Source of the DNA: an uncultured Atopobiaceae bacterium
GTDB lineage: Bacteria > Actinomycetota > Coriobacteriia > Coriobacteriales > Atopobiaceae
Length of the DNA stretch: 64,000 nucleotides
Assembly: GCA_944322145.1 (NCBI GenBank)
Contig: CALUNW010000010.1
Location: 1 to 64,000 of the forward strand
Reading direction: 5' to 3'
The notes below the pieces were generated by a model. It was not told the DNA's origin. It saw nothing but the letters and a program-made list of their open reading frames with translations, and made no database searches. Below are positions 7,861 to 50,193 of the stretch, in pieces; within the stretch, counting starts at the first letter, position 1, and each line of letters starts with the position of its first letter. A program made the position numbers and the translations under genes.

Positions 7861-7870
7861 CCTGAGCGGG

Positions 7871-8059: not shown

Positions 8060-8094
8060 GTGCAGCCTCCCAATAACGCGTCGTTTTACCCGCA

Positions 8095-8108: not shown

Positions 8109-8161
8109 GAGGGCCGCGCGCAAGAGCCGGCACCAGCAAGCGACAAGAGCAAGGAGCCAGC

Positions 8162-9448
8162 ATGCTCGACATCAAGTTCGTCCGCGAGAACCCCGACCTC
8201 GTCGACAAGTCGTGCGAGTCCCGCCAGAACGCCCACTGGGACCGCGAGAGGTTCTTCGAGCTCGACGAGGAGCGCCGCTCCGTCATCGCCGAGGTCGAGA
8301 AGCTCCAGGCCGAGCGCAACGCCGTCTCCAAGCAGATCGGGCAGCTCATGCGCGAGGGCAAGAAGGACGAGGCCGAGGCGGCCAAGGCGCAGGTCGCGGC
8401 CAACAAGGACCGCATCGCCGAGCTCGACGGCCGTCGCGGCGAGGTCGAGGACGCCCTCTTCGACCTGGTCTCCCGCATCCCCAACATCCCGCACGAGAGC
8501 GTGCCCTACGGCAAGGACGACTCCGACAACCCCGAGGTTCGCCGCTGGGGCACCCCGCGCGAGTTCGACTTTGAGCCCAAGGCGCACTGGGATCTGGGCC
8601 CCGCCACCGGCATGATCGACTTCGACCGCGGCGTCAAGGTCGCCGGCGCGCGCTTCTACGTGCTCGGCGGCATGGGCGCCCGCATGGAGCGCGCCCTCAT
8701 CAGCTTTATGGTCGACATGCACGTGAAGGCGGGCTTCAAGGAGTGGTGGATGCCCGTCATCACCAACCGCGAGACCCTCTTTGGCACGGGTCAGCTGCCC
8801 AAGTTCGAGGACGACCTCTACCACGTCAACCCCGACCTCTACCTCATTCCCACCGCGGAGGTCATGCTCACCAACCTCCATCGCGGCGAGGTGCTCGAGG
8901 CCAGCCAGCTGCCGCTGTGGTACACCGCGTTCACCCCGTGCTTCCGCGAGGAGGCGGGCTCTGCCGGCCGCGATACGCGCGGCATCATCCGCGTGCACCA
9001 GTTCGACAAGGTCGAGATGGTCAAGTTCGCCAAGCCCGAGGATTCGATGAACCAGCTTGAGAGCATGGTCGTCGAGGCCGAGGCCGTTCTCCAGGCGCTT
9101 GAGCTGCCGTATCACGTGGTGACGCTGTGCACCGGCGACATCGGCTTCTCCGCTGCCAAGTGCTACGACCTCGAGGTGTGGCTGCCCAGCTACAACGCCT
9201 ACAAGGAGATCTCCTCCTGCTCCAACTGCTGGGACTTCCAGGCGCGTCGCGCCAACATCCGCTACAAGGACCCGGCGGAGTTCAAGGGCACGCGCTATGT
9301 GCACACGCTCAACGGCTCTGGCCTCGCCGTTGGCCGCACCATGGCCGCCATCATGGAGAACTACCAGAACGCCGACGGCTCCATCACGGTGCCTGAGGCG
9401 CTGCGCCCCTACATGGGCGGCGTCGAGGTCATCAAGTCTGAGGCGTAG
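8162..9448 (+). CDS. serS: Seryl-tRNA synthetase
   Basis: 428 aa, the usual SerRS length. Residues 1-100 are the charged coiled-coil arm that contacts the tRNA-Ser variable arm. The catalytic core shows motif 2 ([21 protein letters not shown]) in a form typical of bacterial SerRS, and motif 3 as [18 protein letters not shown]. It charges tRNA-Ser with serine in the cytoplasm. Start ATG chosen because AAGGAG lies eight bases upstream and the protein opens with the canonical [14 protein letters not shown]. No T-box leader is seen. A terminator follows at 9460. Confidence 0.98.
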
Positions 9449-34868: not shown

Positions 34869-35930
34869 CTAGGAGAGGCGCTCCTCGAGCTCTCCGGGGT
34901 GGCTGGCATGCGCAAGCGCCGTCTCGGGCGTGATGCGTCCCGCCTGCACGAGGTCGTACAGGCTCTGGTCCATCGTCCGCATGTCGGACTTGCCCTCCTC
35001 GATGGCCTCGTCGATCTGGCGCATCTTGTCCTTGCGGATGAGGTTTCTGATGGAGTTGTTGACGACCATGATCTCAAAGGCGGGCGCCACGCCGCCGTCA
35101 ACCGTCGGTACGAGCTGCTGGCTCACGACGGCCTGCAGCACCTGCGAGAGCTGCATGCGGATGCGGCGCTGCTGGGACGGCGGGAACGCGTCGACGATGC
35201 GATTGATGGTGCTCTCGACGGTGGAGGTGTTCAGCGTCGAGAAGATGAGCTGAGACATCTCGGCGGCGGTGAGGGCGGTGGCGATGGTCTCGGCGTCGCG
35301 CATCTCGCCCAGCAGGATGACGTCGGCGGCCTCGCGCGTGGCGGAGCGCAGGGCCTCGGAGAACGTCGCCACGTCGGTGGGGATCTCGCGCTGCGTCACG
35401 ATGCAGGTGCCGTGCCGGTGGATGTACTCGATGGGGTCCTCCATGGTGACGATGTGACCCGAGCGCTCGTGGTTCAGGCGGTCGATCATGCACGCCAGAG
35501 TGGTCGACTTGCCCATGCCCGCCGATCCCGTGACCAGCACGAGACCCTTCTGGAACCGCGTGAGCTGCAGGACCTCCTCGGGGATGCCGCACTCCTCGGG
35601 GTCGGGGAGGCCAAACGGGATGACGCGCACCACGGCGCCCACGCTGCCGCGCTGGTGGAACACGTTCACGCGGAAGCGCCCGACGCCAAACAGGGCGAAC
35701 GAGAAGTCCTCGTCGTGGTTGCCCTGCTCGGCGAAGTGGTCGTACTGCCTGTCCGCCACCTCATAGAAGGCCCAGACCATGGCCTCGGTGTCCGCGGGGG
35801 AGAGCGGGCTGTCCTCGGAGGAGCGCACAAGGTGGCCGTCGACGCGGTACGTGAGCGGCAGGCCCGCCACGATGAAGACGTCGGAGGCGTGCGCCTCGAT
35901 CATGCTGTTCAGGAAATCCGCGAGGTTCAT
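34869..35930 (-). CDS. PilT-like secretion/twitching ATPase, orphan
   Basis: 353 aa, close to PilT/PilU length. An N-terminal PilT domain (SDVFIVAGLPLTYRVDGHLV), Walker A GSAGMGKST, an Asp box (TMEDPIEYI), Walker B ILLGEMRDAETI and the His-box region FSTLNTSTVESTINRIVDAFP, where the usual His of TLHT is Asn. PilT hydrolyses ATP to retract type IV pili. No pilin or other pilus genes are in this window, so it may serve a locus elsewhere or have a separate job. Start ATG behind GGGAGACGG. It is divergent from the Pel-like operon. Confidence 0.9.
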   Translation of the reverse strand: MNLADFLNSMIEAHASDVFIVAGLPLTYRVDGHLVRSSEDSPLSPADTEAMVWAFYEVADRQYDHFAEQGNHDEDFSFALFGVGRFRVNVFHQRGSVGAVVRVIPFGLPDPEECGIPEEVLQLTRFQKGLVLVTGSAGMGKSTTLACMIDRLNHERSGHIVTMEDPIEYIHRHGTCIVTQREIPTDVATFSEALRSATREAADVILLGEMRDAETIATALTAAEMSQLIFSTLNTSTVESTINRIVDAFPPSQQRRIRMQLSQVLQAVVSQQLVPTVDGGVAPAFEIMVVNNSIRNLIRKDKMRQIDEAIEEGKSDMRTMDQSLYDLVQAGRITPETALAHASHPGELEERLS

Positions 35931-36291
35931 GTCCGTCTCCCGTCGTCGTTGGCCGTCCGGCCGCAGCGGGCGTCCTAGGGGCGTAGCCCTTTCCGCCGGG
36001 TGCCTCGCGGCATGTAAGCAGGGGGTTTGGTCCCTATGGCCCATGCTAAGTATACATAGCAGGTGGTCCAAAGGAGGGGCTCATCGCGGACAAGGGCGGG
36101 AGCGGTTGAGCGCCCTCTCTCGCAAGGCGGCCCCTCCTGTAGTCATGTGCGTGAAAAACCAGCCCGTTACCAGCGTGGATAAAACACAGGTAGAGGCGTT
36201 TGTGTGGATGGATATGGGACCCCCCATGCTACAATTCCTCAGGATAGAGAGCATATTGTCGCATCGTCTGTGCATTGTCAGGTGTCACTTC
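35931..36291. other. 361-bp divergent intergenic region, pilT-like / pel-like operon
   Basis: No gene is seen. A TACAAT hexamer at 36230-36235 is a possible -10 for the pel-like operon but lacks a good -35, and AGTATA at 36049 gives TATACT towards pilT on the minus strand. GCTAAGTATACATAGC (36045-36060) is an imperfect palindrome. I looked for a cyclic-di-GMP riboswitch and did not find one. Confidence 0.4.
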
Positions 36292-38412
36292 ATGAGGTTG
36301 CTGTTTGTCGGGGGCTATGACATAGCGGGTGGGGCCATCGCCTCCCGCATGTACCGCGAGGGTGCCCAGATTGCGTGGCTCACCAACGACCCCGATGCCC
36401 AGCTGTGGGGCGAGAAAATTCACGGACGCGTCTTCAGGCAAAGGATATCCCGCGGCTCCTGCGGCCAGATTCTTGATGGCGGAGCGGTGGACTGCGCGGT
36501 GCTTCTGACGGCGCCCTGGCGCGAGCTCGCCTCTGGGGGCGCCTCGCGGGGCTCGCTGCTCGAGATGCTCGACGCCGTGCTCGAGGAGGCGGCTGCTACG
36601 GGGACGCGCAAGGTATGCCTGCTCTCCAGCGAGATGCTTGCCGAGGAAGAACCGCTGGACGCGGGCCTCGAGGAGCTACGCGCCGCCGAGCGCTTGGCGG
36701 AGGCCTTCTGCCGCCAGCATGACGTGAGCCTGCTCGTTGTGCGTATGGGCCTCTTGTTTGACAAGGATGCAAGTCGTCCGCGGGCGTATCTTGCCGGCAG
36801 ACTTGCGGCGGAGATGGCGGCAGGCGCCCAGGCCCGCTGTCCCTTCGCGCCTGATTCCCGGCTGGATCTGCTGAGTGCCTCTGACGCGGCGGATGCCTTT
36901 CTGAGGCTCTACAACCTCGAGGCAGACGGCGTGCACACGGTCCTCTCGGGCGCCTCAGTGACTGCTCGCGAACTATGCGCCGCCGCCGCCCGCGCTGCGG
37001 GCGCTCCGGAGAATGTGAGCTACGGGACTTTGGACTACGCGTGCGACGAGGGTCGTGCGGAGGCCGTGCGCCTGCTCTGCGGCTGGATGCCCTTTCATCT
37101 GTTTGCAGAGGAGGGCGAAGAGCACCTTCGCAAGGATCTGAGGCAAGAGGCGCCGTCGTCAGAGCCCACGCTCTGTGCCCGTTGGCGACAGCTTGCCCAG
37201 GGCCACCCCCTGGTCTGGGAGACCGTTCAAAACCTCATCCTGTTTGTCGTCGCATGCCTATTTGCCGCGCTTGCAGAAGACTGGAGCGACCTGCGCTACG
37301 TTGACGTCCGACTGCTGTACGTGATTATCATCGCCATCTGCTTCGGCATGCGCCAAGGGCTTCTGGCGACCGTCCTGGCGTGCGCGAGCTACGCCGTCTC
37401 ATTGCTGCGTTCGGGAATTGATGTCTCGTACCTGGGCTACAGCGTGAGCACATGGATTCCTTTTATCGTGTACGGCGTCGCGGGGGCCTTCGGGGGCTAC
37501 TGGAGCGACAAGAAAAACGATGAGTATGACACCCTCTCCCGCGAGTTCGCCGAGCAGGGTCAGCGCTACGACCTGCTCAAGGATCTCTATCGTGAGGTCG
37601 TCGCCCTCAAAAACCGCCTGCAGAAGCAGATCGTCACCTCGCGAGACAGCATCAACCAGTTCTACTCCATTGCTTCCGAGCTCGAGTCCGACGATCCGCG
37701 CATGCTGCTCGCACACGCTGTGAGCGCAATCGAGCAGGCGATGGAAAGCAAGGGCGTCGCCATCTATCTGCTATCGGGTGAGGGTCGGCGCTGGGCGCGT
37801 CTGGCGGTGTGCTCCGCCGCATGGTCGGGCGCCCTTTCTCCCAGTCTTGACCTGCAGTCAATACCTGCGCTTTACGGCAGAGTTATGCACGGCCGGGTGT
37901 TCGTGAACGTCGCCCTTGACGCACGGAGCCCGTCAATTGCCATGCCAATCATGCAGGACGGAGAGCCCCTTGCGGTCGTCGCCGTTTACGGCATGCCCAT
38001 GGAGCACTTTACGCAGGACTTCGAGAACAGATTCCAGACCATGGTGAAGATGGTGCGGGACAGCCTTCTGAGGGCGTTCGCCCATCGCCAGGAGAACCAG
38101 GAGCAGTTCTTCCTTCCTCACACGCAGATCTATCGTCCGGATGCCTTCTCGAGAGAGCTCGAGACTCTCAAGAAGATCGACGAGACCTACGGCTGCCCCT
38201 ACAGCGTCGCTCGCGTCAGGCGCGCGCAGCGCGTGCAGTCCTCTTGGGCCCTGTACCGGCAGGCTGAGCCGCTGCTTCGCGCGACGGACTTCATGGGCGT
38301 TGGCGCCGACGACGAGGTGCGCGCAGTCTTTCTCTACGTCGACGGGCCGCGTCGCCAGCAGATCCAGGAGCGCCTCGAGTCCGGCGGTCTTGTCGTGGAG
38401 TGGGAGGACTGA
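36292..38412 (+). CDS. pelD: PelD-like cyclic-di-GMP receptor with N-terminal SDR-like domain
   Basis: 706 aa. Domains: a Rossmann/SDR-like region (about 1-270, starting RLLFVGGYDIAG, no intact YxxxK), four membrane helices (311-328, 337-352, 355-373, 384-402), a coiled coil (408-450), a GAF domain (about 455-600) and a GGDEF-like domain (about 610-706). The active-site loop is ADDEV (672-676) instead of GGDEF, so no cyclase activity is expected, but the I-site RATD (663-666) sits exactly five residues before it. In Pseudomonas PelD the same RxxD binds cyclic-di-GMP and switches on Pel synthesis. First gene of the operon. The start is placed at the Rossmann strand; the ribosome site is weak (CAGGTG). 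Confidence 0.88.
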   Translation: MRLLFVGGYDIAGGAIASRMYREGAQIAWLTNDPDAQLWGEKIHGRVFRQRISRGSCGQILDGGAVDCAVLLTAPWRELASGGASRGSLLEMLDAVLEEAAATGTRKVCLLSSEMLAEEEPLDAGLEELRAAERLAEAFCRQHDVSLLVVRMGLLFDKDASRPRAYLAGRLAAEMAAGAQARCPFAPDSRLDLLSASDAADAFLRLYNLEADGVHTVLSGASVTARELCAAAARAAGAPENVSYGTLDYACDEGRAEAVRLLCGWMPFHLFAEEGEEHLRKDLRQEAPSSEPTLCARWRQLAQGHPLVWETVQNLILFVVACLFAALAEDWSDLRYVDVRLLYVIIIAICFGMRQGLLATVLACASYAVSLLRSGIDVSYLGYSVSTWIPFIVYGVAGAFGGYWSDKKNDEYDTLSREFAEQGQRYDLLKDLYREVVALKNRLQKQIVTSRDSINQFYSIASELESDDPRMLLAHAVSAIEQAMESKGVAIYLLSGEGRRWARLAVCSAAWSGALSPSLDLQSIPALYGRVMHGRVFVNVALDARSPSIAMPIMQDGEPLAVVAVYGMPMEHFTQDFENRFQTMVKMVRDSLLRAFAHRQENQEQFFLPHTQIYRPDAFSRELETLKKIDETYGCPYSVARVRRAQRVQSSWALYRQAEPLLRATDFMGVGADDEVRAVFLYVDGPRRQQIQERLESGGLVVEWED

Positions 38413-38415
38413 CGC

Positions 38416-39315
38416 ATGGACGTCGTCGTCATCGTCCTTCTCGCTCTGCATGTGCTGCTCTCCCTGGTGTACGCCTGGGACTGGTTTGGCTCGTTCGGAA
38501 GGCTTCAGGAGGCAGCGGTCCGCCTGGTCATCGGTCTCATGCTTCCGCTGGTGGGCGTGCTCACCCTCAAGCTGGTCGACTTTTTTGCCGAGAAGAACGC
38601 AGGGGCACAGATGGACGAGCTCTTCCTGGGAAGGGGGGAGCTGTCGGATGACCTGCAGCTGTTGCGGCCCGTGGACGAGAGGGGCATCCTTGACGCTGCG
38701 CCTGCCGTGGACGTCCTCGAGCTGAACGACTACGACGATCGGCGCGCCATGATCATGAACACGCTGCGCCAAAATGACACGGCGGATTACGTCGACGTTC
38801 TGCGCGAGGCTCTCGCAAACGACGACCAGGAGACGTCGCACTATGCAAGCGTGGTCATCATGGACCTGCAGCAGCAGGTCCACGCACGTCTTGCGGAGCT
38901 CGGCCGTCGGCTCGAGGACGACCCCGATGACCTCGATGCCCTGGGCGCGCTTGAGCAAGAACTGTACCAGGTGATCAAGGAGGGCGTGGTAGACGAGAAT
39001 AGCCTCCCGCGCTACGTCGAACGCTACTGGGGGGTCTCCAATCGACTTCTCGAGGAGGGGCGTCCCTCCGCGTCCCATTTCCATCACCGCATTGCCGCGG
39101 ATCTCAAGACGGGATCCGACGAGCACGCGCGCTCCGTGGCGCGTCGTTATCTCGAGATCCACCCGGACGACGAGGACGCGGTCCTGGATGCGATTCGCGT
39201 GTGCGTCCAGCAAAACGACCGCCCGGGCCTCGATGCGCTTCTGGACCGCCTGGGCGACATGCCGGTGGTGCTCACGAGCAAGTCGCTGCGCTACATCAGG
39301 TTCTTGAGGAGGTGA
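38416..39315 (+). CDS. pelE: PelE-like membrane/helical-repeat protein
   Basis: 299 aa, three bases after pelD. Two membrane helices (about 3-20 and 34-54) precede a long soluble helical region (about 60-299) that reads as TPR-like repeats (DYVDVLREALANDDQETSHYASVVIMDLQQQ; RSVARRYLEIHPDDEDAVLDAI). This matches the layout of PelE, an inner-membrane scaffold that binds PelD and PelG in the Pel synthase. Identification rests on architecture and on its position between PelD and the deacetylase, since PelE sequences diverge strongly. Confidence 0.75.
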   Translation: MDVVVIVLLALHVLLSLVYAWDWFGSFGRLQEAAVRLVIGLMLPLVGVLTLKLVDFFAEKNAGAQMDELFLGRGELSDDLQLLRPVDERGILDAAPAVDVLELNDYDDRRAMIMNTLRQNDTADYVDVLREALANDDQETSHYASVVIMDLQQQVHARLAELGRRLEDDPDDLDALGALEQELYQVIKEGVVDENSLPRYVERYWGVSNRLLEEGRPSASHFHHRIAADLKTGSDEHARSVARRYLEIHPDDEDAVLDAIRVCVQQNDRPGLDALLDRLGDMPVVLTSKSLRYIRFLRR

Positions 39316-39321
39316 GAGCAC

Positions 39322-41178
39322 GTGGGAGGATACTATCGCAAGCTCTTCGTCTACATCTTCGCTGCCCTGGCCGTGGCGCTGCTTCTCGTCGTCGTGAACA
39401 GCGGGGCGCTGGTGCGCAGCAACGGACAGGAGTTTGACTTCGACCGGACCGAGCCCGTGGACACCGTGTCCCAGGCCGACATGGAGGACGCCGAGACGAC
39501 CGCTCTCGTGCTCTGCGACCCCGAGGACGCGCAGTCAGTGAAGTACCAGGACAATCTCGAGCGCGTCTTCGGCTGGCTGCGCATCGACGCGCTCTTCCTT
39601 CCGGCCGACCGCAAGGACACAGTGAGTTACCAGGACTACGACCTCGTGATGGTCGCGTTCTCGGACTGGGAGGGCCTCATCGGCGGGGACAGCGCGCGGC
39701 TGCTGCGCTACGTCGACGGCGGCGGGCACCTGCTGCTGGGTATGATGCCCGACGAGGTGGGCGGGGTGTACCAGACGCTCTCCCGACGCATGGGGGTGAC
39801 GGATTACGGGGACTATCTCGAGACCGACGGAATCCGCTTCACCGACGAGCTGACCCCCGGGGCCACGAGCCAGGTCTTCCAGGGGGAGGACTTCGGCGAC
39901 GTTGCCCTGAGCCTGCAGGTGGAAAGCGGCTGCGACGTCTATGCGACTGCCCTGGCGGGCGAGCGGGAGACCCCCCTGGTGTGGCGCAAGGAGGTCGGCG
40001 AGGGCGCCATTCTCTCGTACAACGGGACCGCCATTACAGGTGACAGCTGGACGGGTTTTGCCGCGGGATGTGTGACGGCGCTGCTGGGCGAGCACCTCTA
40101 CCCGGTCATCAACACCAAGACCGTCTTCATCGACGACTTCCCCTCGCCCCAGTACAACACCCAGAGCGACGTCATCGAGCAGAACTACAACCGCACAGTG
40201 CAGGAGTTCTTCCGAGACATCTGGTGGCCCGACATGCAAAACGCCGCGCGCAGCTACGATTACGGCTACGTGGGCCTGTTCATAGCGACGTACGACGACG
40301 TGGTGGACCCGGAGGACTTCCTCTACCAGAAGGACACGGTCGAGCAGTACTTTGGCAACAGCCTCCTGGATAACGACTTCGAGATCGGGGCCCATGGGTA
40401 CAACCATCAGTCCCTTGCCCTCGAGGGAGGGGTGCCCGACGACCTGGGCTACAACTCCTGGGCAAGCGAGAAGGACATGACGGCGAGCTTGGTCGAGCTG
40501 CGCTCCATCGCTAGCGAGCTCTTTCCGGGCGTGAAGCTCTACACGTACGTTCCACCCTCGAACTATCTTGACGCCGACGGCCGCGATGCCGTGAAGGAAG
40601 CCCTGCCCGATCTTCAGGTCATCTCCGGCGTGTATACAGGCGAGGGCGAGGAGGGCAGCGTCTACGTCCAGGACTTCGAGGTGGCTTCCGACGGCATCGT
40701 GGAGTTTCCCCGCATCACCTCGGGCACGCTGGACGACCCCTACGACCGCTTCGTTGCGTTGAACGTGGGCGGCCTCTACGGCGTCTACAGCCACTTCATC
40801 CATCCCGACGACATTCTGGACGAGGAACGCGGCCGCGGGCTTTCGTGGGAGGAGCTCTACCGTCAGTACACCACGCGCCTGCAGTACGTCAACGACTGCC
40901 TCTCCAGCCTGAAATCTGCTACCGCCATGGAGGCGGCGGAATCCCTGCGTGTCGCCGAGCAGCTCGAGGTGGCGATCGAGGTGGGGCAGGATCGCGTCGA
41001 GGGCCGTTGCAACGGCTTCACCGGCCAGGCGTACTGCTACTTCCGCACCGACGGCGTGGCCCGGGCGGACAATGACAGTTGCATGGTTACGCCCGTGAGC
41101 GACGTGGCCGGCGAGCACTGGTACCTCGTCGAGGTCCTCGAGCCCACGTTCTCCTTCGCGCTGGAGGAGAGATCATGA
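39322..41178 (+). CDS. PelA-type polysaccharide deacetylase-like protein, DUF2194
   Basis: 618 aa, GTG start after GAGGAGGTGA. One N-terminal membrane helix (about 9-28) puts the rest outside. Residues about 60-255 are a flavodoxin/GATase-like fold (ALVLCDPEDAQ, VDGGGHLLLGMMP), then a deacetylase-like barrel with FIDDFPSP (D271, D272) and IGAHGYNH (H358, H362), the usual Asp-His-His metal set of CE4-related enzymes. No glycoside hydrolase domain is present, unlike the two-domain PelA of Pseudomonas. Expected to de-N-acetylate the exported polymer. Overlaps pelF in ATGA. Confidence 0.82.
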   Translation: MGGYYRKLFVYIFAALAVALLLVVVNSGALVRSNGQEFDFDRTEPVDTVSQADMEDAETTALVLCDPEDAQSVKYQDNLERVFGWLRIDALFLPADRKDTVSYQDYDLVMVAFSDWEGLIGGDSARLLRYVDGGGHLLLGMMPDEVGGVYQTLSRRMGVTDYGDYLETDGIRFTDELTPGATSQVFQGEDFGDVALSLQVESGCDVYATALAGERETPLVWRKEVGEGAILSYNGTAITGDSWTGFAAGCVTALLGEHLYPVINTKTVFIDDFPSPQYNTQSDVIEQNYNRTVQEFFRDIWWPDMQNAARSYDYGYVGLFIATYDDVVDPEDFLYQKDTVEQYFGNSLLDNDFEIGAHGYNHQSLALEGGVPDDLGYNSWASEKDMTASLVELRSIASELFPGVKLYTYVPPSNYLDADGRDAVKEALPDLQVISGVYTGEGEEGSVYVQDFEVASDGIVEFPRITSGTLDDPYDRFVALNVGGLYGVYSHFIHPDDILDEERGRGLSWEELYRQYTTRLQYVNDCLSSLKSATAMEAAESLRVAEQLEVAIEVGQDRVEGRCNGFTGQAYCYFRTDGVARADNDSCMVTPVSDVAGEHWYLVEVLEPTFSFALEERS

Positions 41179-42596
41179 GAATATGCCTTATAGCCGAGGG
41201 GTGCTATCCCTATGTGGCCGGAGGGGTGTCCTCCTGGGTCCAGATGCTCATCCAGGGTATGCCGGAGCACACCTTCGTCATCTACACCATCGCCGCGAAC
41301 GAGTCCGACCGCGGGAAGTTCAAGTACGAGCTGCCGGAGAACGTGGAGCGGGTGGAGGAGAACTTCCTCGACCAGTACATGGACACGAAGGTGAGAAGAC
41401 CGCGGCGCAATGACCTCAAGCCCCAGGAGCGGAAGGCGCTGCTGGACCTCATAACCTCCAGCAAGCCCGACTGGGACACGCTTTTCGCCATGTTCTCCGG
41501 CGCTGGGAGCTATCAGGCCAACGAGTTCTTGGCCAGCGACGCATTCCTGGACGTGCTGATGGCGGCGAGCGAGGACACGTTTCGCATGACCCCCTTCAAC
41601 AACGTCTTCTGGACCGTTCGTTCCATGCTGCTCCCCGTGCTCAACATCCTTCGCTGCCCCGTGCCGGATGTGGACGTGTTCCACGCGGTTTCTACGGGCT
41701 ACGCCGGCCTGCTGGGTGCCCTTTTCCAATGGCGGACGGGCAAGCCCTTCGTTATCACCGAGCACGGCATCTACAGCCGCGAGCGCGAGGAGGAAATCCT
41801 GCGCGCCAAGTGGGTCGACGTCTACTTCAAGCGCACATGGATTGACTTCTTCCTGGGCATGGCATCGGCGGCGTACGACCATGCCGGCGTCATAGCTTCT
41901 CTCTTCCACCATGCGCGCGACCTCCAGATCGAGTACGGGGCACTCCCCGAGCGCTGCAGGGTCATTCCCAACGGCATCAAGCTCGAGCGCTTCGAGGGCA
42001 TCGGCCCCCTGCCGCTCGAGCGGCAGGGCCTGACGCTCGGGGCGGTGATCCGGGTGGTCCCCATCAAAGACCTCAAGACCATGATCAATGCCTTTGCCCT
42101 GGTGCGCGCCAGGCGTTCAGACGCCACGCTCTACATGATCGGTCCCGCGGACGAGAATCCCGAGTACTACGACGAGTGTCTTGACCTCATCGACAACCTC
42201 GGCGTGAAGGGTGTCGAGTTCGTGGGTCGCGTGGACGTTGCCGAGTGGTACGGCAGGCTCGACATGGTGCTGCTGAGCAGCATCAGCGAGGGCCAGCCCT
42301 ACGCCGTGCTCGAGGCCATGGCGAGCCGTCGCCCCGTGGTGGCGACGGACGTGGGCTCGTGCCGCGAGCTTCTCGAGGGCAATGGCGACGGTCTGGGCGC
42401 AGCGGGCGTCGTGGTGCCGGTGATGAGCCCGGACATCATGGCAGACGCCATCCTCGAGCTGGCGGAGGACCGCGCTGGGCTGAGCCGCATGGGCGAGAGC
42501 GGCCACGAGCGGGTGAGCCGCTTCTATCGCGAGGACGACTTCTTGGCCACCTACAAAGACTTGTATCAGGAGGTGGGCGACGCATGGCGGGCGTAG
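41175..42596 (+). CDS. pelF: PelF-like glycosyltransferase (GT4)
   Basis: 473 aa. The start MRICLIAEGCYPYVAGGVSSW is the standard PelF opening, and the GT-B fold continues with VFHAVSTGYAGLLGAL, FVITEHGIYSREREEEI, the C-terminal donor site VVPIKDLKTMI, SISEGQPYAVLEAMA (E-x7-E) and VVATDVGSCRELL. In the Pel pathway PelF is the cytosolic enzyme that polymerises UDP-GlcNAc/GalNAc-type precursors. Translationally coupled at both ends: ATGA with the upstream gene, and a 13-bp overlap with pelG. Confidence 0.95.
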   Translation: MRICLIAEGCYPYVAGGVSSWVQMLIQGMPEHTFVIYTIAANESDRGKFKYELPENVERVEENFLDQYMDTKVRRPRRNDLKPQERKALLDLITSSKPDWDTLFAMFSGAGSYQANEFLASDAFLDVLMAASEDTFRMTPFNNVFWTVRSMLLPVLNILRCPVPDVDVFHAVSTGYAGLLGALFQWRTGKPFVITEHGIYSREREEEILRAKWVDVYFKRTWIDFFLGMASAAYDHAGVIASLFHHARDLQIEYGALPERCRVIPNGIKLERFEGIGPLPLERQGLTLGAVIRVVPIKDLKTMINAFALVRARRSDATLYMIGPADENPEYYDECLDLIDNLGVKGVEFVGRVDVAEWYGRLDMVLLSSISEGQPYAVLEAMASRRPVVATDVGSCRELLEGNGDGLGAAGVVVPVMSPDIMADAILELAEDRAGLSRMGESGHERVSRFYREDDFLATYKDLYQEVGDAWRA

Positions 42597-44113
42597 GCTT
42601 CGAGCTCAAGAAGCTCTTCCGCCGTCGCGGCGGATACATGAATGCCCTTCGGGCCTATGCCACCACCGCGATGGTCACCGAGGGTCCCATGGTGCTCTGC
42701 ATCGTTATGCTGTTCGCCACGCGCCTGCTGCTGCGCCTGTGGGGGACGGGGTATGCTGACCAAGAGGTCTACCTGATCAGCATCACCTACATCATGATCT
42801 TCTCGCTCATCCTGTCTAACACGTTCCTCATGTTCTCGGACCGCTTCATATCGGACTGCATATACGAGGACCACAAGGACCAGATTCTACCGTCCTTCTT
42901 TAGCCTCGTTGCCTACCTGCTGCTTCTCGGGGGCGTGGTCGCAGGCATTTATCTGCTGCTTCTTGACATCCCGCTTCTGCACAAGGTGCTCAACTTCCTG
43001 CAGTTCGAGACTATGCTCATCGTCTGGGTGCAGATGGCGTATCTCTCCGCCATCAAGAAGTACCTCAAAGTTCTGACGGGCTTCTTGGCGTCCGCTCTGC
43101 TTGCCGTAGGCGGCGCCGCACTGCTCATGTTCTTGCGGGTGGAGCCCCTGACGGCGGCCTTTCTGGGGGGTACTGCCGGCTACCTGCTGATGATGCTGCT
43201 CTATATGCAGGAGCTTGTGAGCTTCTATCCCATGGGCCGCTTAAGCCTCGTGGTGCTCTTCCCGTACCTGGACAAGTACAAGAGCCTGATCGCAACGGGG
43301 TTCTTCTCGGCGCTCGGTCTGTTTGGCCACAACTTCGTCTACTGGTTCAGCGAGTATCACACCACCGTCATCGACAACATGGTCTACTGCATGAAGTATG
43401 ACGTCGCCTGCTTCTGGGCCAGTTTGACCATCATTCCGTATCTGGTGATCAACGTGGTGTCGCTCGAGGTCAACTTCTACAAGGCGTATCGAACGTACTT
43501 TGACACCATTTTGTACGGGGGGACCTTGGAAGACATCCGCACGGAGAACCGCAACCTGGGCCGTGCGCTGTTCCGCGAGCTTGCCCATGTGTTCGAGTTG
43601 CAGTTCTTTGTGGAGCTCCTCTGCATTACCTTCCTGGGCAACTTCCTGCAGAATACGGCGTTTGACCTGGAGATGCTCTCGATCTTCCGCTACCTGTGCG
43701 TGGGGTACTGCTTCTTCGTGCTGGTGAAGAGCATCGTGATCTTGTTGCTGTACTTCGACGACCGCAGGGGCGCGCTGATCTTCAGCGGTCTCTTTGTCGC
43801 ACTGAGCATCGTGTTCTCCGCCCTGATGCTGCTGGCTGGCATCGACTGGTACGGCATCGGCTTCCTCGCCGCAGGCGTCGTGTGCTCGATTGCGGGTCTC
43901 TACTATCTGCACGGCTATATTGAGCGCCTGGAGTATCAGGTTTTCTGTCGCCAGCCGCTCTTCTACGAGGAACCCGAGGGCGTCTTCAAACGCCTGGCAG
44001 ACCTGGTGAACGAGGAGGAGCGTCGCGTGAGCCTGAAGCACCAGTACCGAGAGAAGGAGCGTGGCCGAAAGGAGCGCGCGAACAATGAGGGCCAGGAGGG
44101 GAGGAAGTCGTGA
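42584..44113 (+). CDS. pelG: PelG-like polysaccharide transporter
   Basis: 509 aa with about 12 membrane helices, opening MAGVGFELKKLFRRRGGY, a PelG hallmark. Other PelG-like stretches are MVTEGPMVLCIVMLF, SDRFISDCIYEDH and FYWLA-like YWFSEY near 255. PelG belongs to the MOP flippase superfamily and moves the polymer across the membrane with PelD/PelE. The ATG overlaps pelF by 13 bp and has AGGAGGTGGG as ribosome site. The C-terminal tail is highly charged (KHQYREKERGRKER). Confidence 0.95.
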   Translation: MAGVGFELKKLFRRRGGYMNALRAYATTAMVTEGPMVLCIVMLFATRLLLRLWGTGYADQEVYLISITYIMIFSLILSNTFLMFSDRFISDCIYEDHKDQILPSFFSLVAYLLLLGGVVAGIYLLLLDIPLLHKVLNFLQFETMLIVWVQMAYLSAIKKYLKVLTGFLASALLAVGGAALLMFLRVEPLTAAFLGGTAGYLLMMLLYMQELVSFYPMGRLSLVVLFPYLDKYKSLIATGFFSALGLFGHNFVYWFSEYHTTVIDNMVYCMKYDVACFWASLTIIPYLVINVVSLEVNFYKAYRTYFDTILYGGTLEDIRTENRNLGRALFRELAHVFELQFFVELLCITFLGNFLQNTAFDLEMLSIFRYLCVGYCFFVLVKSIVILLLYFDDRRGALIFSGLFVALSIVFSALMLLAGIDWYGIGFLAAGVVCSIAGLYYLHGYIERLEYQVFCRQPLFYEEPEGVFKRLADLVNEEERRVSLKHQYREKERGRKERANNEGQEGRKS

Positions 44114-45894
44114 GAAGGTTCGAGCTGAAGCCGGCGTATCTGGCCGCCGTGGCGGGAATCCTCCTGCTTCTGGGTCTGGCCCTTGGCGCGTCGAGCCTGC
44201 GTCGCACGAGCGCCCCGACAGAGGGGGACGAGCAGGTCATCGAGGCCGTCGATGACGAGCGGGGCGACGAGCAGGAGACCGGCGGCTTCCACGTTGCCGA
44301 GGGCGGGGACATAGACGACGGTCTCAACGAGGACAAGAGCGTCTACGCCGAGGACGATCCCGACTCGATTGTGTGCTTCTACGTCACGGTGCGCTACGGC
44401 AGCGAGGCGCGGGGCACCAACCACACCTTTAACGAGGTGAACAGCGCTATTCGCTTTGTGGACAGCGCTCATGTGGACAACGACGTGTACGCCGACGCCC
44501 TGGTCCAGGTGGGTAACGAGGAGGGCCCGCAGCCGGGCATGCTGGGCTACGGAGAGACCGAGTCCAACGCGACGATCCGCGTACGCGGCAACTCGTCCAC
44601 GACGATGCCGCAGAAAAGCTACAAGCTCTCCCTCAATGACGAGGCGGGGACCTGGCGGGGGCAGAGCAACATAGCCTTGAACAAGCACATCTTCGATGCC
44701 ACGCGCGTCAGGAACAAGCTGTACTTCGACCTGGCGAAGAATCTCTCCGACGTGCCGAGCGAGCGCACCCAGTTTGCCCGCGTGTTCATCAAGGACGAGA
44801 CCTCCGGCGCCACCGAGTTCGAGGACTACGGCCTGTTCACCCAGATTGAGGTGCCCACCAAGAAGTACCTCGCCAACCACGGGCTTGATCGAGCGGGATA
44901 TCTCTACAAGGTCATCAGCTTCAACTTCGAGCCAAATGACCTCATCAAGAACTTCGATGACGAGGGATTCGACCAAGCTGCGATGGACACCGTTATCAGC
45001 TGTCGGGGGCGCGAGGACAACGCGCGCCTGCTGGAGCTGATCGAGGCGGTCAATGACGTCACCATCGACATCAACGACGTGTTGGACACCTACTTTGACC
45101 GCGACAACTATTTCCAGTGGCTCGCGTTCAACCTGCTGATGGGCAACAGGGACACCACCATGCAGAACTATTACCTGTACAGTCCTCTTAACGGCAGCAA
45201 GTGGTACATCATTCCCTGGGACGGCGACACGAGCCTGATGCGCAACGAGTACCAGATGGAGGATGGCGAGAAGATCGCGGACTGGGAATGGGGCATTGGA
45301 AATTACTGGGGCATAGTTCTTCACCAGCGCGTGCTGAAGAACGACCGCTGCCGTGAGGAGCTCGCCGCCACCGTGGAGGAGATGCACGAGTGGCTGAACA
45401 AGGAGACCGTGGACGAGATGCTCGCCGACTACTACGAGACGGTGGAGCCCTACCTCTACGCCATGCCCGACTACCTGAACCTTCAGCACACTCGCGAGGA
45501 GGTCGAGAGCATCCTCGCGACCATGGGCGATGAGGTGGAGGAGAACTACGCCAACTTCGTCGACAGCCTGGACGACCCGATGCCCTTCTGGCTGTATGAC
45601 GCAGAGCCTAATGAGGACCAAGTTCGCCTGAGCTGGGGCGCTGCCTATGACTTCGAGGGCAGCTCCTTCACCTACGACGTCGTCGTGAGTCGCTACCCCG
45701 ACATGCGTGACCCGCTGTTCAGCCAGCAGGGGCTGTCGGCGACCGAGGCGAGCGTTCCCCGAGAGGCCCTAGGGGACGGCGAGTTCTACTGGCGGGTGGT
45801 TGCCACCCGCTCCGATGGTCAGACCGTGCCGGCAATGAACCAGGTCGGGGTGGGCGAGGAGTTCTATCCCGGCGTCTACAGCTTCGTGCTGTGA
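44110..45894 (+). CDS. CotH-family kinase-like membrane protein
   Basis: 594 aa, GTG start overlapping the pelG stop. An N-terminal membrane helix (about 9-27) anchors an external protein. Residues about 95-470 match CotH: GNSSTTMPQKSYKLSLND, YLYKVISFNFEPND, YFQWLAFNLLMGNRDTTMQNYYLY and IIPWDGDTSL, the last carrying the Asp pair. About 500-590 looks like a fibronectin/Ig-type domain. CotH proteins are atypical secreted kinases; in Bacillus one phosphorylates spore-coat proteins. Here it is cotranscribed with exopolysaccharide genes, so its substrate may be a matrix protein or the polymer. The target is inference. Confidence 0.88.
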   Translation: MRRFELKPAYLAAVAGILLLLGLALGASSLRRTSAPTEGDEQVIEAVDDERGDEQETGGFHVAEGGDIDDGLNEDKSVYAEDDPDSIVCFYVTVRYGSEARGTNHTFNEVNSAIRFVDSAHVDNDVYADALVQVGNEEGPQPGMLGYGETESNATIRVRGNSSTTMPQKSYKLSLNDEAGTWRGQSNIALNKHIFDATRVRNKLYFDLAKNLSDVPSERTQFARVFIKDETSGATEFEDYGLFTQIEVPTKKYLANHGLDRAGYLYKVISFNFEPNDLIKNFDDEGFDQAAMDTVISCRGREDNARLLELIEAVNDVTIDINDVLDTYFDRDNYFQWLAFNLLMGNRDTTMQNYYLYSPLNGSKWYIIPWDGDTSLMRNEYQMEDGEKIADWEWGIGNYWGIVLHQRVLKNDRCREELAATVEEMHEWLNKETVDEMLADYYETVEPYLYAMPDYLNLQHTREEVESILATMGDEVEENYANFVDSLDDPMPFWLYDAEPNEDQVRLSWGAAYDFEGSSFTYDVVVSRYPDMRDPLFSQQGLSATEASVPREALGDGEFYWRVVATRSDGQTVPAMNQVGVGEEFYPGVYSFVL

Positions 45895-45904
45895 CGGGGG
45901 CGTC

Positions 45905-46612
45905 ATGAAGACCTATCGTCACGAGCAGAAGTACCTGATTCACGAGGCGCAGTACCTCCCGCTTCGCTCTGCGCTCTCGGCGCTCATGGAACGAGACAGC
46001 CATGTGGGTCCCGATGGGGAGTACATGCTGCGCAGCCTGTACTTCGATGACATGTACCGCACCGCGTACGAGGACAAGATGGCGGGCGTCTATGCGCGCA
46101 AGAAGTACCGCATCCGCGTCTACGACTGCGCGCGCGACCGCATCAACCTCGAGTGCAAGTACAAGCAGGGGCCCTACATCTCCAAGGAGTCCCTGTCCCT
46201 GAGCGTCGAGGAGTACGAGTGCATCCGCGCGGGTGAGTGCGGCTTTTTGCTGGGGAAGGACTCGCCTATGGCGCGGGAGTTCTACCTCGACTGGCAGACG
46301 CGCCTGCTGCGTCCCGTTGCGGTGGTGGACTACGAGCGGGAGCCCTACGTGATGAATGCGGGCACCGTGCGCATCACCTTCGACAAGAACCTGCGCGCCG
46401 TGGCGCCATCCGAGGGACTTTTCGACGTGAAGGCCCCCTCGAGGGCCGTGCTTGCTCCGGGGCAGCTGATCATGGAGGTAAAGTTCACCGGCTATCTGCC
46501 CGAACGGGTGCGGCGCATCTTCGCGACACGCAACATGACCCAGACCTCTGCCTCCAAGTTCTGCATGTGCGTTGACCGACTGAACGGCGTTATGCCCCGG
46601 CTGAGCGCCTGA
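45905..46612 (+). CDS. VTC-domain protein (polyphosphate polymerase fold)
   Basis: 235 aa. The tunnel-forming basic residues of the VTC/TTM fold are visible: RHEQKYLI at the start, KKYRIRVYD, INLECKYK, VVDYEREPYV, VRITFDKNL and the acidic IMEVKF. In yeast Vtc4 this domain makes polyphosphate from ATP. No SPX domain is attached. It lies between CotH and DUF4956 genes, a trio that recurs in bacteria. Cytoplasmic by sequence. Whether it makes polyphosphate or handles another triphosphate is not decided by sequence. Confidence 0.9.
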   Translation: MKTYRHEQKYLIHEAQYLPLRSALSALMERDSHVGPDGEYMLRSLYFDDMYRTAYEDKMAGVYARKKYRIRVYDCARDRINLECKYKQGPYISKESLSLSVEEYECIRAGECGFLLGKDSPMAREFYLDWQTRLLRPVAVVDYEREPYVMNAGTVRITFDKNLRAVAPSEGLFDVKAPSRAVLAPGQLIMEVKFTGYLPERVRRIFATRNMTQTSASKFCMCVDRLNGVMPRLSA

Positions 46613-46637: not shown

Positions 46638-47327
46638 ATGGACGAGCCGACTCAGACAACATTTGCCGACATGTTCAAGAACTCGTTTTTGAACATGTTC
46701 CCCGAGACCGTCGATCCCTGGCAGCTGGTTACCGTGCTGGCGGTGTCGCTTCTGCTGGGCCTGTGCATCTACGCCGTCTATCGGCGATGCTTCATGGGAG
46801 TGGTGTACGACCACTCATTTGCCATCTCGCTTGTGATCATGACGGTTCTGGTGTCCGTGATCATCGTGACCATCAGCTCAAACGTCATGCTCTCGCTCGG
46901 TATGGTCGGTGCCCTCTCCATCGTGCGCTACCGTACGGCGGTGAAGAGTCCCCTCGACCTCATGTTCTTGTTTTGGGCCATCACGACGGGCATCGCGGTG
47001 GGGGCGACCTATTACTACATCGGCATCGTTGCGTTCCTGTTTGTCGCGGTGGTGTTCTTCGTCCTTCGAAATGTGAGGGGTGGCAGCGAGACGTACATGC
47101 TCGTGCTGGAGTGCTCGGCCGATCTCCCCGTCGAGGAGGAGGTGCGCCGCGCGCTTGCGAGCTATCAGACCAAGGTGCGCTCCAAGGTGGTGCGCAACAA
47201 TCGCGCGGAGCTGACCGTCGAGGTGCTCATGAAGGATGACAACATGAACGTCGTGAACGTCATCAGCCAGATCGAGGGCGTAGACAACGTGACGATGGTT
47301 CAGTATCGCGGCAGCTACGACGCGTAG
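46638..47327 (+). CDS. DUF4956 membrane protein
   Basis: 229 aa. Four membrane helices (about 30-50, 60-82, 83-100, 110-140) carry the DUF4956 hallmark SLGMVGALSIVRYRTAVKSPLDL, and the C-terminal 80 residues form an ACT-like soluble domain (YMLVLECSADLPVEEEVRRAL...NVISQIEGVDNVTMVQYRG). The biochemical function is unknown. Constant neighbour of VTC and CotH genes, so it may act with the VTC protein at the membrane. Last gene of the operon; the HPt gene converges 11 bp later with no terminator between. Confidence 0.9.
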   Translation: MDEPTQTTFADMFKNSFLNMFPETVDPWQLVTVLAVSLLLGLCIYAVYRRCFMGVVYDHSFAISLVIMTVLVSVIIVTISSNVMLSLGMVGALSIVRYRTAVKSPLDLMFLFWAITTGIAVGATYYYIGIVAFLFVAVVFFVLRNVRGGSETYMLVLECSADLPVEEEVRRALASYQTKVRSKVVRNNRAELTVEVLMKDDNMNVVNVISQIEGVDNVTMVQYRGSYDA

Positions 47328-47338
47328 CCCTGGCGCCG

Positions 47339-47677
47339 CTAGCCAATCGCGCGCAGCACGGCGTCGCGGGCGTCCGCGAGCGCGGGCATGAGTCGCTCGG
47401 CCTCCGCGCGGTCCCCTGCGCGCAGGGCCGTGAGAACGCCCATCGCCAGCTCGGCCAGCGTCTTCATGGAGAGGTTCGCCGCCGCTCCCTTGAGCGTGTG
47501 GGCGGCGGCGCGCGCCGCGTCGTCGTCGCCCCGCTCCATCGCGCGAACCAGCTCGTCATAGGACGTGTCCTGCGCAAAGATGCCGAGCAGCCGCTCGTAG
47601 AGCTGCTCGTTGCCAAGAACGCGGCCGAGGCCGTCCTCGACGTCCACCCCTGCTGCCTCGAGCTCCTCGCGCCTCAT
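47339..47677 (-). CDS. Histidine phosphotransfer (HPt) protein
   Basis: 112 aa four-helix HPt domain with the phosphoacceptor H60 in AAAHTLKGAAANL. It would pass phosphate between the receiver domain of a hybrid kinase and a terminal receiver. It overlaps the REC-HD-GYP gene by four bases (ATGA), so that protein is the likely partner; the hybrid kinase at 56181 is the likely source. Confidence 0.92.
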   Translation of the reverse strand: MRREELEAAGVDVEDGLGRVLGNEQLYERLLGIFAQDTSYDELVRAMERGDDDAARAAAHTLKGAAANLSMKTLAELAMGVLTALRAGDRAEAERLMPALADARDAVLRAIG

Positions 47678-48825
47678 CGGGAGCCCTCCTCTCTCGTCTC
47701 ATACATCGTGCTCATAAGAGGCTCGACCTCACGGAACGCCGTCAGGAGTTGGGGATTGAAGGTCCCGCACTCCCCTCCGCAGATCATCCCGACCGCCTTC
47801 TCGCGCCCGAAGGCGCCCTTGTACACGCGCTTGGAGCGAAGGGCGTCGTAGACGTCCGCGAGGGCCACCACCTGGGACCAGGTGGTCAGGTCGCTGCCGC
47901 CGAGGCCGTCGGGGTAGCCGCGGCCGTCCCAGCGCTCGTGGTGGTGGCGGGCGATGTCCACGGCGTACGGGTATGCCCCGCTCTGGTGCAGCTGGGGAAT
48001 GCCCTCGAGCATCTGCGCCCCGACTATCGTGTGCGTCTTCATGACCTCGAACTCGTCCGAGGTGAGCTTGCCCGGCTTTCCGAGGATCGCGTCCGGTATG
48101 GCGATCTTCCCGACGTCGTGCATGATGGAGGCAAGCGCGATGCTCGCCACGTCGCTGGAGGAGAGGCCGCTTCCCAGCGAGGTCTCCGTGAGCATGATGC
48201 GCGTGATGTCGTGGATGCGCCGCACGTGCCCGCCCGACTCTCCGTCCCTGAACTCGATCGCCGTCGCAAGGGCCTCGATCATGCCCTGGTTGAGCTCGAT
48301 GATCTGTGCCGCGCGGCGCAGCAGCTCGTCCTGCTGCCGCTCGACCACGCCGCTCAGGCGCCGCCTTGCCGCAAAGAGCTCGACGACGGACCCCACGCGC
48401 CGCTGGACCACGTGGGGTATCACCGGCTTCTCTATGACGTCCATGACGCCCAGCTCGTAGGCGGCGCGCGTGACCTCCGCGTCGGCCTCCGCACTGATGA
48501 GGAACACGGGGATGCGCAGCATGAGGCCGCGCTCGTCGAGCCGGCGCAGCACCTCGAGCCCGTTCATCCGTCTCATCTGGTAGTCGAGAAGAACGGAGCA
48601 GTAGCGGGCGGGGTCGGCGAGGATGAGGTCGAGGCCCACGTCCCCGTCCTCGGCCTCCTCGATGCGGTAGTGCTCGGAAAAGATGGCGGCGAGGACGGTC
48701 CGGTTGATGACGTCGTCGTCGATGATGAGCATCGTCTGCGGGCCGGCCGGGGCGTCCGCCAGCGGCGCATACTCGTCGATGAGCCCGAGCATTCGCTCGA
48801 GGTCGTTGCCAGGGGGAGGGCACAT
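47674..48825 (-). CDS. REC-HD-GYP cyclic-di-GMP phosphodiesterase
   Basis: 383 aa. Receiver domain (about 31-145) with acidic pocket IIDDD and phosphorylation site D81 in LLDYQM; HD-GYP domain (about 170-370) with HD at 236-237 (IMHDVGK), the metal histidines in ARHHHERWDG, and GYP at 303-305. HD-GYP enzymes hydrolyse cyclic-di-GMP to GMP or pGpG, and here activity should depend on receiver phosphorylation. Coupled to the HPt gene and close to a GGDEF cyclase gene on the same strand. Confidence 0.95.
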   Translation of the reverse strand: MCPPPGNDLERMLGLIDEYAPLADAPAGPQTMLIIDDDVINRTVLAAIFSEHYRIEEAEDGDVGLDLILADPARYCSVLLDYQMRRMNGLEVLRRLDERGLMLRIPVFLISAEADAEVTRAAYELGVMDVIEKPVIPHVVQRRVGSVVELFAARRRLSGVVERQQDELLRRAAQIIELNQGMIEALATAIEFRDGESGGHVRRIHDITRIMLTETSLGSGLSSSDVASIALASIMHDVGKIAIPDAILGKPGKLTSDEFEVMKTHTIVGAQMLEGIPQLHQSGAYPYAVDIARHHHERWDGRGYPDGLGGSDLTTWSQVVALADVYDALRSKRVYKGAFGREKAVGMICGGECGTFNPQLLTAFREVEPLMSTMYETREEGSR

Positions 48826-48866: not shown

Positions 48867-49988
48867 TCACTTCGACGCTGCCTCAAAGTCGAGCAGGTGA
48901 ATGGTGATGCGGTTCTTTCCGCCGTGCTTTGACTGGTACAGCGCCGCGTCTGCCATCTTGATGAGCTCCGTCACCTCGGGGAGGCCCTGTTGCGTGATGA
49001 CCGCGCCTGCGCTGATGGTCGTGGAGAGGCCGAGCTTCTCCTGGCTCTTTGCGGTCAGCTCGGCCTGTATGCGCCCCATCTTGCTCTTGAGGGCCGCCTC
49101 GCTCACGGGCCCGGGGATGAACACGATGAACTCGTCGCCGCCAAAGCGCCCGACGATGTCGGTGGAGCGGAAGTTCGAGCGGAGGATCTCGCTTACGATG
49201 CGCAGCGCGGAGTCTCCGACCATGTGACCGTGGACGTCGTTGATGGACTTGAGGTCGTCGATGTCGATGAAGATGAGCGTGCAGGGGGCGTGCCCCTCCG
49301 CGTTCTCGAAGTAGTCTCGCGTGAGGGAGAGCAGGGCGCGCTTGTTGAAGACCTTCGAGAGGTCGTCGCGCATGCTCAGCTCCTGGAAGTGCGTCTTGGC
49401 CTCAAACAGGACGAGGCGGTACTGCATGACGATGTGGGTCACGCAGACGGAGAAGACGAGGGCCGCTATGGCGGAGAGGGTGTCGAACTGCGCCACATAG
49501 GGGTCCTTGAATGCCAGGGCGCACGCCGCGTACGCGATGGAGAGCGCTCCGGAGATCGCGCAGTTGAGCATCGAGGGCATGATGAAGAGCGCGGAGAGCG
49601 CGACGATCATGAGGGGCGTGAACACCGTCGGCGCCATCGGGTTGGTCATGGTGTCGATGGCGATGCCGAAGGAGATGATGGTGGCCCCCACGAGAACGGA
49701 GAGAAAAGTGGCGAGGGAGCGGGTCGACGACTTCGTCCGATAGAGGCGTATCACTACGAGCAGGGCGAGCATTACGGGAGCAAACAGCAGGTGCGGCGGC
49801 GAGGGTGCCCAGCCCCGTATGAGCAGGGGGGAGATGAGCAGGCACCCTATGAGGATGAAGACGGTGAGAAGGCAGGCGTTGCAGGCGACGTCGAGGTTCT
49901 CCTGTCGGATCTCGTCGCGCGCCGAGGTGAGGTACGCGCGGCGCCTCACCCATTCGCTCTGAATGTAGTCGCGGATCTTCTCGCCCAT
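48867..49988 (-). CDS. Membrane diguanylate cyclase (GGDEF)
   Basis: 373 aa. Six membrane helices (about 38-58, 66-81, 92-112, 122-141, 145-160, 170-190) and a cytoplasmic GGDEF domain (about 205-370). The active site RFGGDEF (281-287) is intact, and the I-site RSTD (274-277) sits five residues before it, so product inhibition is expected. It makes cyclic-di-GMP from GTP. There is no recognisable sensor fold in the membrane part. Start ATG behind GGGGGTGAG. It is in position to supply the PelD receptor encoded close by. Confidence 0.95.
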   Translation of the reverse strand: MGEKIRDYIQSEWVRRRAYLTSARDEIRQENLDVACNACLLTVFILIGCLLISPLLIRGWAPSPPHLLFAPVMLALLVVIRLYRTKSSTRSLATFLSVLVGATIISFGIAIDTMTNPMAPTVFTPLMIVALSALFIMPSMLNCAISGALSIAYAACALAFKDPYVAQFDTLSAIAALVFSVCVTHIVMQYRLVLFEAKTHFQELSMRDDLSKVFNKRALLSLTRDYFENAEGHAPCTLIFIDIDDLKSINDVHGHMVGDSALRIVSEILRSNFRSTDIVGRFGGDEFIVFIPGPVSEAALKSKMGRIQAELTAKSQEKLGLSTTISAGAVITQQGLPEVTELIKMADAALYQSKHGGKNRITIHLLDFEAASK

Positions 49989-50139
49989 GCTCACCCCCGC
50001 TCTGCCGGACGCGGCCCCGTCCCCTCCATGATATCGGAAGCGGCCTTGGGAAGGTCGTGCCGGGGGGCGTCGCGAACCGATTGTACGTCGGTGCCGGCGT
50101 GCCGCGGCGCTCTTTTCGCCGACGGGGCTGCACATCCGG

Positions 50140-50168
50140 TGACCTGCGGTCCTGCGTTCGGATATAGT
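50140..50168 (+). promoter_or_regulatory. Promoter of the CheB-CheR-PAS gene
   Basis: TGACCT (50140-50145), a 17-bp spacer and TATAGT (50163-50168). Confidence 0.5.
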
Positions 50169-50172
50169 GATG

Positions 50173-50193
50173 AAGGGGGCCATTCGCCCCCTT
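50173..50193 (+). other. 5' stem-loop of the CheB-CheR-PAS transcript
   Basis: AAGGGGGC pairs with GCCCCCTT around a 5-nt loop immediately after the predicted start site. It could protect the 5' end of the message or act as an attenuator; only three Ts follow. Confidence 0.45.

Follow-up and report, generated by a model that had tools for sequence, protein, structure and literature searches.

The window analysed here, a stretch of 64,000 nucleotides from the genome of an uncultured Atopobiaceae bacterium, carries a row of eight genes for a Pel-type exopolysaccharide system. The five core genes were found on the forward strand in the order pelD-pelE-pelADA-pelF-pelG, contiguous and with all five open reading frames (ORFs) open (36292–44113). 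PelD (36292..38412) combines a degenerate SDR/epimerase domain (residues ~1–289) with predicted membrane helices, a putative GAF domain and a putative degenerate GGDEF domain carrying an RATD site (R663-D666). PelE (38416..39315) is a TPR protein with a hydrophobic N-terminus (by eye), which was assigned by synteny and by its only Pfam match (TPR_14, 4.1e-05). These genes are followed by those of the polysaccharide deacetylase PelADA (39322..41178; DUF2194), the GT4 glycosyltransferase PelF (41175..42596; DUF3492, EX7E motif at 372) and the exopolysaccharide exporter PelG (42584..44113). Past 44113 the row runs on along the same strand up to 47327 with a cotH-like kinase gene (44110..45894), the gene of a polyphosphate-polymerase (VTC) domain protein, vtc (45905..46612), and duf4956 (46638..47327). 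No intergenic gap between pelD and duf4956 exceeds 25 bases, and all eight genes are open with lengths spanning the family models or relatives. In our view these eight genes very likely constitute a full Pel operon of the Gram-positive, SDR-PelD kind which was acquired horizontally from gut Clostridia and operates by the mechanism proposed below.

Core proteins, published relatives and polymer

The first-pass annotation had named the five core genes in this order, and both the ORF positions and the Pfam matches agree with it. The matches to DUF2194 (5.9e-113, pelADA), to DUF3492 (1.3e-81) and glycosyltransferase group 1 (pelF) and to PF16933 (3.1e-116, pelG) are far beyond chance. Furthermore, neither Pfam nor phylogeny placed PelF or PelG with unrelated families, and the assignment as a Pel-type operon was thus upheld. 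The overlapping starts and stops described for these genes were observed at pelADA/pelF and pelF/pelG (and also at pelG/cotH), but pelD and pelE lie 3 bases and pelE and pelADA 6 bases apart. A search of the window for riboswitches with Rfam at gathering scores returned three tRNAs only, and no repeats were found in 35950–36400.

Two features mark the row as the SDR-PelD subtype: according to Pfam, cotH, a polyphosphate polymerase gene and a DUF4956 gene lie downstream of pelG, and according to alignment and fold match the N-terminus of PelD is a degenerate epimerase domain. In the AlphaFold2 model of PelD (mean predicted local distance difference test score (pLDDT) 83.4, predicted template-modelling score 0.45) residues 1–286 match UDP-glucose 4-epimerases (2p5u_A, Z 28.6, root-mean-square deviation 2.9, 279 aligned residues). 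The 50 rows listed in the PelD fold searches were taken up by SDR chains, and the lack of a PelD chain among them carries no weight. When 15 PelD proteins were aligned, the N-terminal motif was seen to read GGYDIAG in the window and GGYGFIG in the three PelDs bearing a YxxxK stretch (L044, L046 and L055), a stretch which is absent from the window PelD and likewise from its clade. The fused epimerase domain thus lacks residues of the cofactor motif and of the catalytic site and probably serves a structural role.

This type of system is already known. As set out in passages of a 2020 article (PMC7112168), pelDEADAFG occurs in bacilli, clostridia, streptococci and actinobacteria including bifidobacteria; streptococcal, clostridial and actinobacterial PelD carries an SDR domain in which cofactor and catalytic residues are altered, and genes for CotH, a poly-phosphate polymerase and DUF4956 are contiguous with that Pel type. 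The domain layout and the extra genes which the first-pass annotation had considered the cluster's own were therefore published before. As to its statement that Pel-like clusters of Gram-positive bacteria have been reported mainly in Firmicutes, bifidobacteria (PMC7112168) and PelF/PelG homologs of Coriobacteriaceae (PMC4452758) are on record as well. With the Gram-positive SDR-PelD operon described in passages of PMC7112168 the window shares the core genes and their order, a deacetylase-only PelA, the degenerate SDR domain on PelD and three accessory genes directly downstream, whereas it lacks the DUF4832 gene, none being detected in the row by Pfam. As far as passages of PMC7112168 and PMC13254593 go, the core set is also common to pelDEADAFG of Bacillus cereus, beside which divergent pelAH and galE are located (PMC7112168); in contrast to the window, PelD of most bacilli is without SDR domain (PMC7112168). 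The pel locus of Streptococcus intermedius with SIR_1591-1594, tested by deletion in 2025, encodes like the window CotH-, polyphosphate polymerase- and MgtC/ACT-type accessory proteins (passages of PMC12345266), the last presumably corresponding to the DUF4956 type. Its PelD lacks a GGDEF domain (class IV), whereas the window PelD keeps the RxxD motif. As far as our searches show, the new aspects are the rarity and transfer of the operon, the kept RxxD and catalytic residues near genes of cyclic di-GMP (c-di-GMP) turnover, and an accessory trio that is not specific to Pel.

Down to a limit of E 1, PelADA had a single relative of known structure, PDB entry 9zau (2.2e-65), which we take to be PelADA of B. 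cereus. Counterparts of the catalytic residues of the B. cereus enzyme, matched by eye, are all kept (DD, HxxxH, P, R and HPDD). Passages of PMC13254593 list these residues as two Asp of MT1, HxxxH, a Pro in MT3, an Arg that coordinates the base and, in MT5, His plus the Asp after it, and the protein is described there as a working deacetylase whose activity is needed for the Pel biofilm.

Based on homology, PelF would polymerise UDP-N-acetylgalactosamine (UDP-GalNAc), PelG together with PelD and PelE would export the chain, and PelADA would partly deacetylate the polymer outside the cell. The UDP-GalNAc supply may come from GalE encoded elsewhere in the genome, where one GalE over the cut-off was found on another contig. 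A cationic, partly deacetylated polymer, as predicted in the first-pass annotation, is plausible in view of the kept PelADA residues. However, the authors of PMC12345266 suggest, in passages on S. intermedius with its like gene set, a mostly GalNAc, neutral polymer, and the charge of the polymer is thus not readable from the genes. The operon product might accordingly be a neutral, mostly acetylated GalNAc polymer driving cell aggregation and not a cationic surface matrix. Consistent with this, the same passages report that PelAH and Sph3, both N-acetylgalactosaminidases, broke up S. intermedius aggregates whereas Ega3, a galactosaminidase, did not, and ascribe to Pel a limited role in surface adherence. 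With respect to the intact catalytic residues of the window PelADA and to the active, biofilm-relevant deacetylase of B. cereus (PMC13254593, in part), we consider a neutral product a serious possibility that stays somewhat short of an even chance.

Distribution and probable horizontal transfer

At E 0.001, PelG was matched in 15 of the 296 class genomes, with 13 of the matches exceeding the cut-off and 12 being full-length, and at the family level in 7 of 101 (6 over the cut-off, 5 full-length); within the genus the match was confined to one of 31 genomes, the other 30 showing none. Relatives of PelF were obtained by scanning named genomes with the PelF alignment, and the best 80 of 506 were considered. 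Among the matches listed, the closest PelF belongs to Collinsella ihumii (77% identity), Collinsella being a member of the Coriobacteriia, followed by metagenome-assembled genomes of Oscillospiraceae/Clostridia (76, 73 and 64%). Lachnospiraceae, Gemmiger, Faecalibacterium and other clade members within these best 80 reached 52–57%, and the four other Coriobacteriia in the PelF alignment 44–48%. The full eight-gene row in the same order was present in 10 of the 12 clostridial clade loci (L030–L040 and L059); L030 and L035 are cut by contig ends.

In the PelF+PelG tree the window and C. ihumii nest with starred support inside a clostridial clade of Oscillospiraceae/Lachnospiraceae. The label Coriobacteriia requires 5 changes on the tree for 10 rows, at least 4 of them forced by starred branches. 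A single clade of all 10 Coriobacteriia rows was rejected (p-AU, from the approximately unbiased test, 1.4e-62) at a cost of 1497 log-likelihood units, and so was a clade uniting the window and C. ihumii with the four further rows that belong to the genus of C. ihumii (p-AU 1.6e-78). The GC content of the operon is 0.621 versus 0.672 in the rest of the window, and the median GC content at third codon positions (GC3) is 0.853 for the 8 operon genes versus 0.913 for 29 other genes (Mann-Whitney p 1.8e-05), the latter being a hand-picked set of window ORFs that excludes one further, doubtful ORF (7712-9448) as well as other ORFs of the window. On the basis of phylogeny, rarity and composition, the operon was very probably gained by horizontal transfer from a lineage of gut Clostridia. 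PelF matches at 1e-40 occurred in 31 of 72,556 plasmid records, all of them below 60% identity (best listed 40%), and hence no transfer vehicle was identified.

The full operon and its probable origin are thereby given for a lineage in which just PelF/PelG homologs had been mentioned, and the Pel trait would move as a block between gut phyla. According to passages of PMC4452758 from 2015, a transporter and a glycosyltransferase of S. thermophilus that correspond to PelG and PelF have tandem homologs in Coriobacteriaceae, Ruminococcaceae, Lachnospiraceae and other gut families; for the pair in Coriobacteriaceae these passages give neither the layout of an operon nor a phylogeny or an analysis of transfer. 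The main texts of PMC7112168 and PMC7112194 contain none of the terms for Coriobacteriia that were searched for.

C. ihumii, a member of the same order as the host and of another family, carries the nearest Pel copy with the same gene order. In the C. ihumii Pel operon (L023:7616-10182, L023:14242-15811) two IS21-like genes (IstA/IstB, by eye) lie between pelF and pelG, duf4956 stops after 49 amino acids, and a gene for a phage-type integrase follows downstream. Following the apparent state of this copy, with its transposase-like pair, shortened duf4956 and integrase, the acquired operon of the window might be intact but silent or, like this copy, heading for decay; as the eight window genes are open and span the family models or relatives, we consider this unlikely. 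Old vertical inheritance of the operon within the Coriobacteriia, with loss from most genomes, would agree with a nearest copy, identical in gene order, in a different family of this order, but is highly improbable in the face of the forced label changes, the likelihood cost of a single clade, the 30 genus genomes lacking a PelG match and the lowered GC and GC3 of the operon.

PelD and the neighbouring c-di-GMP genes

At the C-terminus of PelD, RATDFMGVGADDEV occupies the position expected for RxxD-x5-GGDEF, with RATD in register with RxxD. The spacing of RxxD-x5-GGDEF is that of diguanylate cyclases and is also shown by the neighbouring GGDEF protein. With RATDFMGVGADDEV in this place the inhibitory-site motif of PelD is kept and the catalytic motif is lost, and the degenerate GGDEF domain would read c-di-GMP via the kept RxxD motif.

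Downstream of the row, three convergent genes on the reverse strand encode an Hpt phosphotransfer protein (47339..47677), a response regulator with an HD domain (47674..48825) and a GGDEF protein (48867..50183). The response regulator keeps the HD-GYP motif HHERWDGRGYP and is a predicted c-di-GMP phosphodiesterase; the GGDEF protein, with GGDEF and RxxD intact, is a predicted diguanylate cyclase. In view of their position and intact motifs, both genes are likely the sink and the source of the c-di-GMP that would regulate the operon. In bifidobacteria, by contrast, a diguanylate cyclase/phosphodiesterase gene stands in place of DUF4832 (passages of PMC7112168). The whole genome (94.91% complete) yielded three GGDEF matches in two genes, one of the two being located 1.5 kb downstream of the operon. 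Upstream, the divergent neighbour on the reverse strand is a gene for a PilT-like ATPase of the T2SSE family (34869..36071). Six of the 31 genus genomes match the window GGDEF protein, namely the host's own and G003, G055, G078, G257 and G319, and the same six show a strong PilT match; two further genomes gave borderline PilT matches. As both sets coincide, the c-di-GMP genes are associated with PilT across this genus, and in the window Pel is located between them.

Several points weigh against a transferred Pel operon under c-di-GMP control. The five genus-mates hold relatives of the GGDEF protein, the HD-GYP response regulator and a kinase together without PelG, which weakens the candidate view of the c-di-GMP cluster as a dedicated part of Pel. 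The GAF-GGDEF half of PelD is without firm match: Pfam reported a weak GAF alone (6.2e-04, below the curated cut-off) and no GGDEF, and the best PDB profile match was at E 0.011. PelD of the Gemmiger type (L036, L037, L038 and L039; 603–604 amino acids) stops before the GGDEF domain despite GGDEF genes in the respective genomes, and c-di-GMP control is therefore not universal in the clade. The PelF+PelG tree was a quick one of 53 rows with SH-aLRT support only, and its rows represent 10 Coriobacteriia genomes, out of 14 in which full-length PelG was found, together with 43 loci out of the 79 others from the best 80 of 506 PelF relatives. Finally, no hydrolase domain was found in pelADA, a PelAH-type hydrolase gene having been sought among the scanned genes only.

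The idea that PelD without GGDEF tracks genomes without GGDEF was discarded, since all 18 genomes searched, Gemmiger-type ones included, have GGDEF matches. Further along the window (50231-52759), a CheB/CheR-fusion-like protein (by eye) shares 81% identity with a protein encoded next to a vtc-duf4956-cotH locus without Pel (L144) in the genome of another family, and a related kinase adjoins the CheB/CheR-like gene at both places.

The cotH-vtc-duf4956 cassette

The cotH product matches CotH (1.7e-59) and PDB 5jd9 (4.5e-11) and has a hydrophobic N-terminal segment (by eye). The 235-residue VTC protein (Pfam VTC, 1e-35) is a single domain; the VTC domain alone was reported by Pfam and no SPX domain, in difference to the yeast VTC complex, to whose Vtc4 its catalytic domain was linked by a profile. 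With a profile built from 24 VTC proteins of bacteria, yeast Vtc4 (3g3q) was matched at E 4.5e-11, an alignment profile being needed as phmmer with the window protein alone gave no match better than E 0.7. Invariant in the 24 proteins and common to Vtc4 are RxR, ExK (ERK), the Arg of YxR and R-D of VRIxxD; the ExK (EVK) on the C-terminal side is also invariant in the 24 and aligned with Vtc4, but that stretch scores just 0.4 bits. The catalytic domain with its conserved charged residues is thus present in the window vtc. DUF4956 (Pfam 1.1e-07) comprises a helical, predicted membrane part and a C-terminal ACT-like domain, its model (pLDDT 81.9) showing six predicted helices and the ACT-like domain. 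The latter matches the C-terminal domain of MgtC (E 1.1e-04, template-modelling score 0.60 by target) and the helical part is unmatched; by sequence, nothing in the PDB was better than E 1.5.

Among the 296 class genomes (E 0.001) VTC was found in 93, DUF4956 in 97 and CotH in 50, and in 91 of the 93 VTC-bearing genomes VTC and DUF4956 are direct neighbours on the same strand. The trio with CotH within 4 kb occurs at 28 loci. All 9 loci beside PelG are arranged cotH-vtc-duf4956 and all 19 loci without PelG vtc-duf4956-cotH; the trio is consequently not Pel-specific, and the exact order cotH-vtc-duf4956 is Pel-linked here. The remaining three of the 12 full-length-PelG genomes are C. ihumii, with duf4956 cut short, and G020 and G079, without a trio beside Pel. 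In passages of PMC12345266 a cotH/polyphosphate/DUF4956-type arrangement is stated not to have been found outside Pel.

At 7 of the 19 non-Pel trio loci (L132, L137, L141, L144, L156, L163 and L166) the cassette is followed by relatives of a 754-residue protein unmatched in Pfam, of a HEAT-repeat protein and of a GT2 glycosyltransferase, for instance at L137:105-6533 and L141:5716-14001; at L132 cotH is broken and GT2 is represented by a short piece where the stretch ends, and at L144 the genes are in pieces. Four of these seven (L132, L137, L141 and L144) adjoin a relative of the window GGDEF protein, and the other 12 non-Pel trio loci showed none of the 754-residue, HEAT and GT2 relatives within the fetched stretch. 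Loci with vtc-duf4956-cotH and these three genes may represent a c-di-GMP-linked exopolysaccharide locus.

As reported in passages of PMC12345266, deletion of the MgtC/ACT-type gene of S. intermedius led to more Pel and deletion of the CotH gene to less Pel, with Pel level and aggregation altered. By analogy, the cassette would tune the amount of Pel or aggregation in the window as well. No such effect is stated there for the polyphosphate gene, which speaks against polyphosphate being essential. As a speculative and rather doubtful proposal, VTC and DUF4956 might form a minimal bacterial VTC complex in which VTC would synthesise polyphosphate at the membrane and DUF4956 would pass or gate it, the product serving as an anionic partner for surface polymers or as phosphate donor for a CotH kinase outside. 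Such a module would form part of Pel loci and of GT2/HEAT loci, the latter sometimes beside c-di-GMP genes, and thus of two or more types of exopolysaccharide-like locus, and it would also occur with neither. The near-constant pairing of VTC and DUF4956 makes the role of DUF4956 directly testable, and the SDR-PelD accessory genes would belong to a wider module. At a further locus (L133:5999-9245) the vtc-duf4956 pair is followed by a Cthe_2159 carbohydrate-binding protein in place of CotH.

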